Shown piece by piece: positions 59,595-64,000 of a DNA stretch of 64,000 bases. The number at the start of each line of letters is the position of its first letter. Position 1 is the stretch's first letter. The notes beneath the pieces were generated by a model. It did no database searches, was not told the DNA's origin, and saw only the letters and a list, made by a program, of their open reading frames with translations. The DNA comes from an uncultured Spartobacteria bacterium (lineage in GTDB: Bacteria > Verrucomicrobiota > Verrucomicrobiia > Chthoniobacterales > Chthoniobacteraceae), in assembly GCA_903919125.1 (NCBI GenBank), contig CAIXGS010000061.1, positions 62,001 to 126,000 of the forward strand, in the 5' to 3' direction. Both the position numbers and the translations under genes were made by a program.

Positions 59595-60755
59595 TTACGC
59601 GCCGCGGAATAAGTCCATGATCGTAGGGCACTCCATCACGCTCAGCGGGCGGAGGCGACCTTCGCCAGTGAGTTTTTGTCGCAGCATGGTGAGGTTGCGT
59701 TCCTCGATCATAGTCCCTCGATTGAGCAGGTTAAGGCTGCCACCCGGAGCGATCGGCAGGGCCTCCACGGTGACGTCGTTTATTTGCAGGGTCTCGACGG
59801 TCTTGCGATTTACATTCCGGCTGCAGACGTAGAGGGACACCGACAAAAGGATGCCGGCGGCGTTAAGGCAGATGCGGACGCGGTCTACCATGAACGCGTT
59901 TAATTTGGGCAAATTCGCGGTGGCGACCGCCTTGGGCACTACAGCCGTGATTACCTCGTGGCCTTCGCCTTGAAGGCCCGCTTTAATCGCTCCCTGAACG
60001 ATGTTTACGACTTCACCGAGGGTGTCGAGAGCATCGCGGCCGGATTCAGCGGGCATTCCGGTTAGCGTCTGGAAAAGGAGCATCGCAGACTTGCGGTCGG
60101 ATTCCACAAGGACGTCCACCCAGAGGGAAGCCTGCGGGGCGACGATTGCGCACCACATGGCAAACGTAGGTTCTTTATCTGCAAATACGTGCTTCTCGAC
60201 CTCTTGAATCGAATCAAGCCCGAGTCCACCTATAGCCTCTACCAGTGTTGGACCCGAGTTGGTGAGCGTCTGAATCTTACGAAATTTGTCGTGGAGAACA
60301 GTGGCGGTGGCTCGAACGTTGGGCGGCGTGGGTTCCAGAACCGCCTCTGGTTGGGCTCCTCCCGAAGCGGCAGCACCGTCTAGGCGGCGGACAAATCGAT
60401 GCGCTGCATCTGCCTTGGCACGAATGACCTCCTTATTCATCGGGAACACCAAAACGTCGGAGGCCCCTGAATTCAGCCCGTCGACGACGACCTTTGGATC
60501 GCCGCTCAAGGTGACAATAAAGGGCACGATGATGTTGTCCGCCGTGCGATTCAAAAAACGTTTTGAAAGGTCTTGAGCAGACGGAGCGGTCAACTCGTCG
60601 CTCAAGAAAGCAAGTACAGGGCTCTTGCTTTCGTTAAGGTAAGTAAAAGCGGAAGAACCGTCCTCCACAGATTCGACTCCCCACCCTGTCGGCTGAACGG
60701 CTTTGGAAATAGCGTCTCTCATGAGCGGATTAGGATCCGCAATCAGGATTTTCAT
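59595..60755 (-). CDS. Receiver domain fused to a CheX/CheC-like phosphatase domain
   Basis: The 386-residue protein has an N-terminal receiver domain at about 1-125 (MKILIADPNPLMRDAISKAV; candidate phospho-Asp53 in AFLSDELTAP; a Lys near 108 in VFPMNKEVIRAK), an Ala/Pro linker, and a CheX-like domain from about 180. The latter carries LGEVVNIVQGAIKAGL with the E-x-x-N pair used by CheC/CheX to hydrolyse CheY-P. The last 60 residues (RNVNRKTVETLQ onward) are not assigned. It is divergent from cheA. Likely role: phosphorylation sink or self-inactivating response regulator of this pathway; inferred. Confidence 0.75.
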   Translation of the reverse strand: MKILIADPNPLMRDAISKAVQPTGWGVESVEDGSSAFTYLNESKSPVLAFLSDELTAPSAQDLSKRFLNRTADNIIVPFIVTLSGDPKVVVDGLNSGASDVLVFPMNKEVIRAKADAAHRFVRRLDGAAASGGAQPEAVLEPTPPNVRATATVLHDKFRKIQTLTNSGPTLVEAIGGLGLDSIQEVEKHVFADKEPTFAMWCAIVAPQASLWVDVLVESDRKSAMLLFQTLTGMPAESGRDALDTLGEVVNIVQGAIKAGLQGEGHEVITAVVPKAVATANLPKLNAFMVDRVRICLNAAGILLSVSLYVCSRNVNRKTVETLQINDVTVEALPIAPGGSLNLLNRGTMIEERNLTMLRQKLTGEGRLRPLSVMECPTIMDLFRGA

Positions 60756-61144
60756 AATGATTCACTTTCGTCTGTGTTTACACTTGATCTGTCCTAGGGG
60801 ATTGGTCGTCTCAAAGTATGTGATTCGCGGGGAATAATTTGTCAACGAGTGTCGCGGTGGATTTTCAGGCGGTCTCGGAGCGAGCGATAGCATTTAACGG
60901 GATCAGGTTAGGAGGCAGGTTGGATTGGGTAGTCGGATATTTATCCGCGGATAACATTATTCCAAAAGTAGTTTGAGTAGTCCTACAATCATGCTGCCCC
61001 GTAGTTTTGTCACCCGAAAGTTTGTTTTATTGTGTCAACAAGTTGTCACAATTCTCTGGCACTGGATCTGCTGACATTTACTTGCTGATAATCAGTCTCA
61101 CTTCCACATTGTAGCATACTTTAGTAAACGGCTCCCTTCTTACC
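60756..61144. promoter_or_regulatory. Divergent regulatory region of the chemosensory genes
   Basis: 389 bases between the REC-CheX gene (-) and cheA (+). It includes a perfect 14-base palindrome TTATCCGCGGATAA at 60941-60954, an imperfect 22-base inverted repeat at 61030-61051 (TTGTGTCAACA and its near complement) and a sigma-54-type promoter match at 61056-61072. No gene seen. Confidence 0.6.
61056..61072 (+). promoter_or_regulatory. Candidate sigma-54 promoter of cheA
   Basis: CTGGCACTGGATCTGCT matches the consensus Y-TGGCACG-rNNN-TTGCW at the essential bases: GG at 61058-61059 and GC at 61070-61071, ten bases apart. Predicted start is about 61083, giving a leader of about 60 bases to ATG 61145. 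RpoN-dependent promoters need an enhancer-binding protein; the palindrome about 130 bases upstream is at a suitable distance. Not tested. Confidence 0.5.
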
Positions 61145-63430
61145 ATGAATGAATTGCTCAATGAATTTCTCGTAGAGAGTTACGAGAATATGGATCAGTA
61201 CGAAGGTAGCCTCATTGAGCTAGAGAAGGATCCTACCTCCAAAAAACTGGTCTCAGCAATTTTCCGCACCCTGCACACGGTCAAGGGTACCTGCGGTTTC
61301 TTGGGGTTGAGTCGATTGGAGGCTATTGCGCATGCAGGTGAAAATCTTCTCTCTTTAGTCCGTGATGGCGTGGTCAGCTTCAACCAGGCCATCGCCTCTG
61401 CTTTGCTCGCAACCGGCGATGCGGTGCGTGCCATTTTAGCGCAGTTGGAGAAAACCGAAACCGAGGGCGATCTAGATTACAGCGAATTGGTGGCGCTCCT
61501 GGTCAGCCTCCAGAAACCTGCCGCTGAAGGAGCGGCGAGTGTGGCGGAAAGTGCTCATCCGACAAAGGCAGCGCCGACCGAAGCCAGGGCGGTGCCGGTC
61601 GAAGCTGAGGCAGTGCCCGTGAAGGCTCCCGTGAAGGCAGCGCCCGCGACGAAGGCTCCAGCAGCCGATCCCAAGCCCGAGTCCAAAGCCGTCAAGGCGC
61701 CTGTGGAAGTGCCCGTGGAGGCGTCCGCCGCCAAGGCGCAGCCAACTGCGAAGGCCCCCGAGGGGGACTCGCCCAGTGGCTCTAAGGCGTCCGACTCCAC
61801 CGTGCGTGTGAATGTTGAATTGCTGGACCGCCTCATGAATTTGGTCGGCGAACTAGTGCTCACCCGTAACCAGATTGTTCAGCTCACCGGATCGTTGGAA
61901 TCCGTCCCGATGCAAGCGGCTTGTCACAGGCTCAACCACATCACCACCGAGTTGCAGGACCGCATGATGAAGACGCGCGTCCAACCGATTGACGCGCTCT
62001 GGAGCAAACTCCCCAGAACAGTGCGCGATCTCGCTCAGTTGTGCGGTAAGCAAATCCGGCTGGAGACCGAGGGCGCTGAGACGGAATTGGATCGCACTGT
62101 CATTGAGGCGATTAAGGACCCAATGACCCATTTGCTGCGCAACAGTGTGGATCACGGCGTGGAATCTCCCGAGGAGCGCAGGGCCGCGGGCAAGAATCCT
62201 GAGGGGCGCATTCTACTGCGGGCCTTTCATGCGGCAGGGCTGGTGACCATTGAAATCATCGATGACGGCGGTGGGATTAAGGTGGAGCGCGTCAAGGCCC
62301 GTGCGTTGGAGCGCAACCTTATCACGCCAGAAAAGGCGGCGACGATGAGTCAGCAGGAAGTGGTGAACTTAATCTTCCAAGCGGGCTTTTCCACGGCGGA
62401 AAAAGTTAGCAATATTTCGGGTCGTGGCGTCGGAATGGATGTCGTTAAGACGCAGATTGAGAAGATCGGTGGGATGGTGGACATGTCCACGGAAGTGGGT
62501 AAGAGCACCACTTGCCGCATCAAGATACCGCTGACTTTGGCGATCATCCCGGTGGTGATTGTGGGTTGCCGTGGGGATCGTTTTGCTATTCCGCAGACTA
62601 ATTTGCTCGAGGTTATCCGACTGGATAAGAACCTGATGGTGGAGACCGTCCACGAAACGCCCGTGGTGCGGTTGCGCGGCAATTTGCTGCCGATTGTGTT
62701 TCTTGACAGCGTGCTTGCAATAAAGACTGGGGAGCGTGAAGAGACCCAGCACTTAGTGGTGCTCCAGGCTGGAGATCGGCATTTTGGACTGGTGGTGGAC
62801 ACGATTCACGAGGCCGAAGAAATCGTCGTCAAGCCGCTGGGCCGTGCGCTGACTGCGGTCTCTTGTTTTGCGGGAGCGACGATTTTGGGAGATGGCCACG
62901 TGGCGTTAATCCTGGACATCTTCGGGCTTGGAAGCCGGGCTGCGATGTTCCAATCCACGCGGGCAGCGAACGCCTTTGAGGAAGAGGCCAAGGCGCAAGG
63001 AGTAGGAACTGGCGCTCTGCTAAACGAGTTGCTGGTGTTCCATGTCGGCGGAATCCGGGCGGCGATGCCACTAGACATGGTCAGTCGACTGGAAGAGTTT
63101 AGTAGAGAACAAATTGAGGAGGCTGCAGGCAGGCAGGTTATCCAGTACGGAGGCTCGATTATGCCGCTTATCTCTTTATCACGTGCGCTTGGTTTTGACG
63201 AAACCAAGTCCTCAGACGGGCGAGTGCAGACGATCGTTTATGCGCGCAACGGGCGGGCTGTGGGACTGGTGATTGATGGGGTTGAGGAAATCGTGCGAGG
63301 CAACATTGAGGTGCAGCCTGCGGGGCGACGCTCTGGAGTGTTGGGCTCGGCGGTGATCGGCAAACAAATTACGGAACTTATTGATGCGCAGGATCTCGTG
63401 CGAACCCACGCCTCTGATCTGTTCGAATAA
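61145..63430 (+). CDS. cheA: Chemotaxis histidine kinase CheA with two CheW-like domains
   Basis: The 761-residue kinase has an Hpt domain at about 1-110 with phospho-His44 in LHTVKGTCGF, a long Ala/Lys/Pro/Val-rich linker at about 125-215 built of short repeats (V-K-A-P-V-K-A-A), the P3 dimerisation helices at about 220-290, the HATPase domain with the N-box HLLRNSVDHGVES, DDGGGIKV and GRGVGMDVV, a CheW-like P5 domain at about 460-590 and a second CheW-like domain at about 620-755. P2 is not obvious. No Shine-Dalgarno precedes ATG 61145. It is followed 12 bases later by cheW. No receptor gene is in the window. Confidence 0.95.
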   Translation: MNELLNEFLVESYENMDQYEGSLIELEKDPTSKKLVSAIFRTLHTVKGTCGFLGLSRLEAIAHAGENLLSLVRDGVVSFNQAIASALLATGDAVRAILAQLEKTETEGDLDYSELVALLVSLQKPAAEGAASVAESAHPTKAAPTEARAVPVEAEAVPVKAPVKAAPATKAPAADPKPESKAVKAPVEVPVEASAAKAQPTAKAPEGDSPSGSKASDSTVRVNVELLDRLMNLVGELVLTRNQIVQLTGSLESVPMQAACHRLNHITTELQDRMMKTRVQPIDALWSKLPRTVRDLAQLCGKQIRLETEGAETELDRTVIEAIKDPMTHLLRNSVDHGVESPEERRAAGKNPEGRILLRAFHAAGLVTIEIIDDGGGIKVERVKARALERNLITPEKAATMSQQEVVNLIFQAGFSTAEKVSNISGRGVGMDVVKTQIEKIGGMVDMSTEVGKSTTCRIKIPLTLAIIPVVIVGCRGDRFAIPQTNLLEVIRLDKNLMVETVHETPVVRLRGNLLPIVFLDSVLAIKTGEREETQHLVVLQAGDRHFGLVVDTIHEAEEIVVKPLGRALTAVSCFAGATILGDGHVALILDIFGLGSRAAMFQSTRAANAFEEEAKAQGVGTGALLNELLVFHVGGIRAAMPLDMVSRLEEFSREQIEEAAGRQVIQYGGSIMPLISLSRALGFDETKSSDGRVQTIVYARNGRAVGLVIDGVEEIVRGNIEVQPAGRRSGVLGSAVIGKQITELIDAQDLVRTHASDLFE

Positions 63431-63442
63431 CTTGAGACGTCC

Positions 63443-63877
63443 ATGAACAAAACCCGCCAACTTTGTACCTTTGTCCTCGAAGGGCAGACCTTCGGCATTC
63501 CTGTCGATTGCGTTCTGGAAGTGATTCGCAGCCTCCCCTTGACTCACGTGCCACTGGCTCCTGAAGCCGTGTGCGGACTCATTAATCTTCGCGGCCAAAT
63601 CGTTACCGCTATCGACCTGCGCCGCCGTCTGGAACTGGGGCCTCTTAAGGAAGGGAAGACCGCGAGAATGAATATCATCATTCGGACTTCCGAAGGGCCT
63701 TTGTGTTTTCCCATCGACGAGGTCGGCGATGTGGTGGACGTGGAGGAACGCTTGTTCGAACCGGTGCCCGAGACGATGACTGGCACAGCGAGGAAGCTCA
63801 TCGATAGCGTGTGTAAGCTTCCTGGGACTCTCTTACTGGTACTCAAGGGAGACTATGCTGAACTCGCAGGGATTTAA
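63443..63877 (+). CDS. cheW: Chemotaxis adaptor CheW
   Basis: The 144-residue protein is a single CheW domain that links receptors to CheA. It starts MNKTRQLCTFVLEGQTFGIP, keeps VPLAPEAVCGLINLRGQIV (the G-L-I-N-L-R-G motif is diagnostic) near 40-55 and IDEVGDVVDVEERLFEPVP near 90-110, and ends soon after LLVLKGDYAE. The start ATG 63443 follows cheA by 12 bases; a weak GAG stands upstream. cheY begins 64 bases further on. Confidence 0.94.
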   Translation: MNKTRQLCTFVLEGQTFGIPVDCVLEVIRSLPLTHVPLAPEAVCGLINLRGQIVTAIDLRRRLELGPLKEGKTARMNIIIRTSEGPLCFPIDEVGDVVDVEERLFEPVPETMTGTARKLIDSVCKLPGTLLLVLKGDYAELAGI

Positions 63878-63941: not shown

Positions 63942-64000
63942 ATGCGTGCCCTAATAATCGACGACTCGCGCACCATGCGCATTATTATCTCAAAGATTGT
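63942..64000 (+). CDS. cheY: CheY-type response regulator, N-terminal fragment
   Basis: The last 59 bases encode MRALIIDDSRTMRIIISKI, the first strand and helix of a receiver domain with the paired acidic residues D-D and the S-R-x-M-R pattern of CheY. The frame runs off the end of the window. Position after cheA-cheW supports CheY. A weak AAGAAA precedes the ATG. Confidence 0.85.
   Translation, partial: MRALIIDDSRTMRIIISKI

Follow-up and report, generated by a model that had tools for sequence, protein, structure and literature searches.

In this analysis, a sigma-54-type promoter box was found before cheA within a compact conserved block, and we propose that the chemotaxis operon of this apparent member of the Verrucomicrobiota is controlled by sigma-54 together with the activator of the flagellar genes. 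According to this proposal, TGGCACTGGATCTGCT would be the -24/-12 promoter of a putatively single cheA-cheW-cheY-cheB-cheR operon; sigma-54 polymerase would bind it as a closed complex, which an enhancer-binding protein would open. The likeliest such protein would be a 495-aa REC-AAA-FIS protein encoded elsewhere in the genome (G000:C23:24606-26093; the C23 activator), the presumed flagellar activator of the family, and the che operon would be switched on together with the flgB rod/hook operon. We assign this explanation as a whole a probability of roughly 60%. The sequences themselves contain the box, its conservation, a second conserved element at a near-fixed spacing from it, an rpoN gene, boxes at flgB and the co-occurrence of the C23 activator with flgB, from which we infer promoter activity, one che operon, action of the C23 activator at cheA and a protein that binds the element.

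The DNA analysed (the window, 64 kb) is positions 62001-126000 of contig C61 in a draft genome, G000, of 4.34 Mb (87 contigs, 95% complete); its relevant features are collected in Table 1. Past the end of the window, the che cluster also includes cheB, cheR and a gene for a PurA-family protein of 109 aa (L050 5942-8883). The gene for this last protein, which matches the PurA nucleic-acid-binding family, lies 3' of cheR (L050 8554-8880), and a similar gene is also found 3' of cheR in G006 (L182 757-1074). The che cluster of G009 contains a 566-aa gene (L183 14295-15995) that overlaps an MCPsignal match (G009:C3:41442-41918); no counterpart was seen in the che cluster of G000. The divergent neighbour of cheA encodes a REC-CheX protein, for which matches at an E value of 1e-15 or lower were present in 5 of the 40 family genomes (G000, G006, G009, G011 and G036). 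Identity to the G000 protein was 61% in G006 and 45% in G009; the close match in G011 was fragmentary, lying at a contig end, and the match in G036, like additional ones in G009 and G011, was distant (27-32%). The divergent REC-CheX/cheA pair was found in G000, G006 and G009, where CheA was 78% identical to that of G000 in G006 and 67% identical, over residues 185-759, in G009.

Table 1. Features of the REC-CheX/cheA region, in window coordinates
Feature	Position	Strand	Remark
REC-CheX protein, divergent	59595..60755	-	both domain matches below Pfam cut-off
Perfect palindrome TTATCCGCGGATAA	60941..60954	.	not conserved, probably chance
Conserved 13-base element TTGTCACCCGAAA, candidate activator site	61007..61019	+	identical in 3/3 orthologues
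Imperfect inverted repeat, 22 bp	61030..61051	.	18/22 positions symmetric
Second copy AAGTTGTCACA	61040..61050	+	TGTCA 36 nt downstream of the first one; degenerate in G009
Putative sigma-54 (-24/-12) promoter box TGGCACTGGATCTGCT of che operon	61057..61072	+	conserved before both close cheA orthologues
Predicted transcription start, ~12 nt past GC	61083	+	from spacing rule only
cheA (Hpt, H-kinase_dim, HATPase_c, two CheW stretches)	61145..63430	+	ATG at 61145
cheW	63443..63877	+	
cheY, first part	63942..64000	+	window ends inside gene

The sigma-54 consensus is TGGCACG-N4-TTGCW, with GG and GC ten bases apart, and transcription starts about 12 nt after the GC of the -12 element. As the initial annotation had reported, a match with this ten-base spacing precedes cheA: TGGCACTGGATCTGCT agrees with the consensus at 10 of the 12 scored positions and is separated from the cheA ATG by 72 bases. 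It is the sole exact TGGCACN6TGCW in the window. When one mismatch was allowed, 7 sites were found in the window against 8.6 expected; looser matches are therefore no commoner than expected and carry no weight. Across the genome, TGGCAYN6TGCW occurred at 40 sites (27 of them beginning with TGGCAC, and 4 being one repeated sequence), compared with 20 for the reversed pattern, so that about half of such genomic sites may be due to chance. At the control rate, the expectation of a chance hit on one strand of the 389-nt gap between REC-CheX and cheA is approximately 0.0009. The cheA box is judged to be above chance mainly because of its conservation in both close orthologues, the boxes before cheA in the three REC-CheX/cheA pairs of G000, G006 and G009 being TGGCACTGGATCTGCT, TGGCACCGGAACTGCT and TGGCACCAGACCTGCT, respectively. 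On these sequence grounds, it is very probably a real sigma-54 promoter.

The competing view, that the box is a coincidence and the operon is transcribed by sigma-28 or sigma-70, is improbable. The flagellar cluster does encode a FliA/WhiG-family sigma factor, a sigma-28-type factor often serves chemotaxis genes elsewhere, and the proportion of chance boxes in the genome is as high as noted above; however, the best sigma-28-like site had 4 of 12 mismatches in G000 and G006 and 5 of 12 in G009, at unrelated places, and the best of the four sigma-70-like sites listed per genome on the cheA strand had 4 of 12 mismatches in G000 and 5 of 12 in G006 and G009. By comparison, the sigma-54 box is conserved in all three genomes, at a near-fixed spacing from the second conserved element. 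Sigma-54 control is not general in this CheA family. Of 13 CheA loci examined, 10 had a usable start, and among the 7 of these that are not close orthologues the boxes were patchy: a good one in G002 (TGGCATTGGATTTGCT), weaker ones in G004, G012 and G013, and none before cheA in G005, G015 and G008.

The second conserved element, TTGTCACCCGAAA, was absent from the feature list of the initial annotation. It occupies about -76 to -64 relative to the predicted start, and the distance from its first base to that of the box is 50, 50 and 51 nt in G000, G006 and G009, respectively. In the same order, the distance from the start of the box to the cheA ATG is 88, 233 and 48 nt, and that from the REC-CheX ATG to the element is 251, 32 and 32 nt. 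This constant inner spacing amid shifting outer distances indicates that a block of approximately 65 bp has been kept while its surroundings have changed. A second TTGTCAC follows the first by 36 nt in G000 and G006 alike and is degenerate in G009. When the blocks of G000 and G006 were compared, 46 of 68 columns were equal, whereas the best ungapped stretch elsewhere reached 30 of 68 and mononucleotide-shuffled controls had a mean of 31 and a maximum of 36 (200 trials). It is probable that an activator or accessory factor contacts TTGTCACCCGAAA, about 70 bases before the start. PilR sites are TGTC repeats upstream of pilin promoters, and TGTCA is similarly repeated upstream of the -24/-12 box at cheA.

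An alternative is that the element, as GTGACA on the opposite strand, provides a -35 box for divergent transcription of REC-CheX. In G006 and G009, 32 nt separate it from the REC-CheX ATG, and GTGACA-N18-GATGAT in G006 matches a sigma-70-like site at 9 of 12 positions; however, the corresponding distance in G000 is 251 nt, and there the best sigma-70-like site on the REC-CheX strand (TTGACA-N16-TCACAT, 9 of 12) lies elsewhere, nearer REC-CheX. In G009, the -35-type reading matches at only 8 of 12 positions. Furthermore, the conserved part extends into CCCGAAA, and the spacing is near-fixed to the sigma-54 box and variable to REC-CheX. We therefore regard a -35 role as unlikely and retain the interpretation of TTGTCACCCGAAA as a probable contact site for a protein acting at the cheA promoter.

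When 384 genomes of the class were searched with a gapped pattern for the block, made up of the element and the box, only G000, G006 and G009 had a match, and the reversed control had none; since the pattern was derived from these three sequences, their own matches are trivial, and what is informative is its absence elsewhere. Of the 12 genus members, 5 were included in this search, and the other 7 were covered by a looser pattern, TTGTCA...TGGC...TGC, which gave 52 sites in the 12 genus genomes, compared with 26 for the reversed pattern. Among these 52, the three cheA sites and one in G015 (L119) were inspected, and there may be an excess among the others; the L119 site was the only other one with TTGTCACCCGAAA, and it lies inside a reading frame. 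With this looser pattern, the block was found at no further noncoding place among the 12 genomes. The footprint is thus carried by three sequences, all from one genus. A wider TTGTCACCCGAAA regulon was considered and rejected: with at most one mismatch, the element occurred at 23 sites in G000, G006 and G009, compared with 13 for the reversed pattern, and a strong box (10 of 12) followed within 250 nt only at the three cheA sites, three further sites having weak boxes (8 to 9 of 12) within that distance. Exact copies in L140 and L141, as well as a copy with a box-like stretch in L119 (G015), were regarded as chance occurrences because they fall within longer reading frames.

The initial annotation had instead proposed that the palindrome TTATCCGCGGATAA is the activator site. 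It is indeed perfect and ends 102 nt before the box, and about 102 nt is a usual distance for an activator site; however, its best match in the orthologous gaps of G006 and G009 has 6 of 14 mismatches, its exact sequence occurs once in the genome, and 8 perfect palindromes of 14 bp or longer occur within the window. The search for further copies, which had been suggested as a check, gave 14 matches with up to two mismatches over both strands of the genome (7 places), near the 10 of the reversed control. The palindrome also falls in a stretch of the gap that is missing from G006 and G009. A role as activator site is accordingly very improbable, and TTATCCGCGGATAA is probably no more than a chance occurrence. 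The suggestion that it controls the divergent REC-CheX gene is not supported by the same comparison, because the orthologues lack it and the conserved upstream element is TTGTCACCCGAAA, which takes the place of the palindrome as a directly testable site. The annotated inverted repeat is present; as a dyad it is not conserved, since one of the two orthologues retains the right half alone and the other neither half.

A search of the genome for rpoN, also suggested as a check, gave one match (E value, 2e-57); the same search was positive in 4 of 14 control genomes. There were 11 matches to the sigma-54 activator domain, 5 of which were strong (E value of 8.3e-63 or better); weak matches mean little, since this search was positive in all 14 control genomes. 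All five strong activators have a REC-AAA-FIS architecture. Among the 25 NCBIfam matches listed for each activator, all were below the cut-off, and no name was therefore given to any of them. As a positive control, a full-consensus box was found 106 nt before the ATG of an ammonium transporter gene, a classical sigma-54 target, which supports the use of such boxes in G000. The earlier suggestion that cheA expression is tied to an RpoN activator is therefore supported by the conserved box, rpoN and the five activators.

Sigma-54 boxes were also found at the flagellar genes. In the flagellar cluster on contig C28, FlhA, FlgB, FlgC, an FlgE/F/G-type hook protein and the FliA/WhiG sigma factor exceeded NCBIfam cut-offs, and FliS and FliD exceeded Pfam cut-offs; an FlhF-like GTPase was below the cut-off, and other genes were named by reading. 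In G000, the box TGGCACAAGCAATGCT begins 31 nt before the flgB ATG, and another, TGGCACGAGCCCTGCT, is located upstream of the 151-aa gene that precedes flgB. FlgB was present in 17 of the 40 family genomes. A proximal box (at least 9 of 12, at -28 to -41) was found at 12 of the 17 flgB loci, with none in G015, G013, G010, G011 and G025, and a distal box (-470 to -772) was found at 15, a count that leaves out a match in G002 with no start after it; G004 has none. In total, 1,000 nt upstream of each of the 17 flgB genes gave 33 box hits on the forward strand, compared with 2 on the reverse strand.

Two further observations were made at this locus. Among the 12 genomes that have a proximal box, 11 have it beginning 28 to 33 nt before the flgB ATG (G000:C28:42050-42424; relatives L185-L201); the predicted start would consequently lie about 2 to 7 nt before the ATG, leaving the flgB messenger almost without a leader. 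The 151-aa gene and flgB are closely preceded by a gene for an HD-GYP-type response regulator, which has an HD_5 domain (G000:C28:43051-44319).

The presence of the C23 activator tracks that of flgB. When it was used as a query, 39 of the 40 family genomes matched at an E value of 1e-90 or lower, because paralogues were matched too; orthologues were delimited at a break in the list (E value of at most 4.6e-143 and at least 55% identity; next row, 8.8e-110 and 48%). Orthologues so defined were present in 19 of the 40 genomes (G000 counted), including all 17 with flgB, and 21 genomes had neither. The two genomes with the activator and no flgB, G005 and G014, are 68% and 62% complete. The probability of this co-occurrence by chance would be approximately 2e-9 if the genomes were independent; they are not, so that the contrasts inside genera g2, g3, g7 and g8 are better evidence. 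A flagellin gene adjoins the activator in 2 of the 17 loci read (G020 and G025), out of 19 loci with L215 and L220 left out. In G000, the upstream neighbours are a TPR gene, with the box TGGCAAGCCGTGTGCT about 370 nt before it, and a gene without a family match whose 141-aa product resembles FlgN by eye only; no histidine kinase was found among the adjoining genes. The FIS region sequence ISIRTLRNKL is identical in the 16 orthologues listed and in L217; the latter differs from the listed ones in having GAYTGA in place of GAFTGA or GSFTGA.

The sigma-54 boxes at flgB and an activator that tracks flgB make it most likely that cheA belongs to the flagellar sigma-54 regulon, and it is reasonably likely that the C23 activator acts at cheA. 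The choice of activator is, however, the weak step. The promoter may depend on sigma-54 but use one of the other four activators, with chemotaxis controlled apart from the flagellum and TTGTCACCCGAAA being the site of that protein. Four more REC-AAA-FIS activators are encoded in G000, and, among the sites looked at, the element stands beside a strong box only at cheA. In the 150 nt preceding each flagellar box, the two halves of TTGTCACCCGAAA were never found together, so that a different one of the five activators may act at cheA. A search for a motif shared by 30 promoters (15 distal, 12 proximal and 3 cheA), controlled by mononucleotide shuffles only, gave no accepted element common to cheA and the flagellar boxes, which makes a different activator a fair alternative. 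GGTGAC/GTCACC occurred in 12 of the 30 promoters, compared with a mean of 2.8 and shuffled maxima of 8 to 11 for any 6-mer; it was set aside because at the distal boxes it seems, on inspection, to come mostly from the end of the upstream coding sequence. The count for CCGAAA/TTTCGG, 9 of the 30, was inside the shuffled maxima. Against a separate activator stand the shared function of chemotaxis and flagellar genes and the family search, made with the C23 protein as query, in which the presence of that protein tracks flgB, and we consider this alternative clearly the less probable of the two.

With the C23 activator as the preferred candidate, the genes for swimming and for steering are probably turned on together. 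More tentatively, sigma-54 and the flagellar activator might directly control the chemotaxis operon together with the rod and hook genes, earlier than the late sigma-28 stage. They would do so through the compact 65-bp block, in which the activator would bind only about 70 bases from the start, at a site that has no relation to those of the flagellar operons; this fuller scheme is less likely than not.

This arrangement is reminiscent of known flagellar regulons. According to the portions consulted of PMC7064773, rod and hook genes depend on sigma-54 and a flagellar two-component pair in polar flagellates such as Vibrio cholerae and Pseudomonas aeruginosa. Like the FlrBC, FleSR and FlgSR systems described there, the present one has a sigma-54 box at flgB, a REC-AAA-FIS activator that tracks the flagellum and, in the flagellar cluster, a FliA-family gene over the cut-off and an FlhF-like gene below it. 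Unlike those systems, as far as these portions of PMC7064773 describe them, it belongs to another phylum, has no kinase found beside the activator, and has a sigma-54 box at the che operon itself. Sigma-54 motility regulons have been predicted in the Verrucomicrobiota class Opitutia (PMC12316311), which amounts to the same general claim of sigma-54 control over motility genes in the phylum; the word chemotaxis does not occur in its main text, and the portions consulted mention neither an activator nor an upstream element for the present group. Among the open-licence literature matches listed, and in the portions consulted of PMC7064773, PMC12316311 and PMC3162934, a cheA promoter dependent on sigma-54 was not described for this group. 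The proposed control is thus of a well-known type, in a lineage that has been little studied, and provides a testable motility wiring for apparent Verrucomicrobiota, in which one activator, the sigma-54 boxes at flgB and a joined chemotaxis operon would be linked.

Other box-like sequences were encountered in G000. The sigma-54-like box TGGCATAAGAGGTGCT (G000:C79:15524-15539, minus strand, in L107) lies 28 nt before the ATG of an MCP-type gene, whose product combines a partial MCPsignal domain with a Cache-like part at the C terminus that scored below the cut-off. At the four remaining MCP loci of G000, the gap before the gene has no box of at least 9 of 12. Finally, the box-like sequence TGGCATAGTATTTGCT occurs near four contig ends (C26:115, C28:115, C34:20338 and C81:4036) and probably belongs to a repeat at which the assembly was interrupted.
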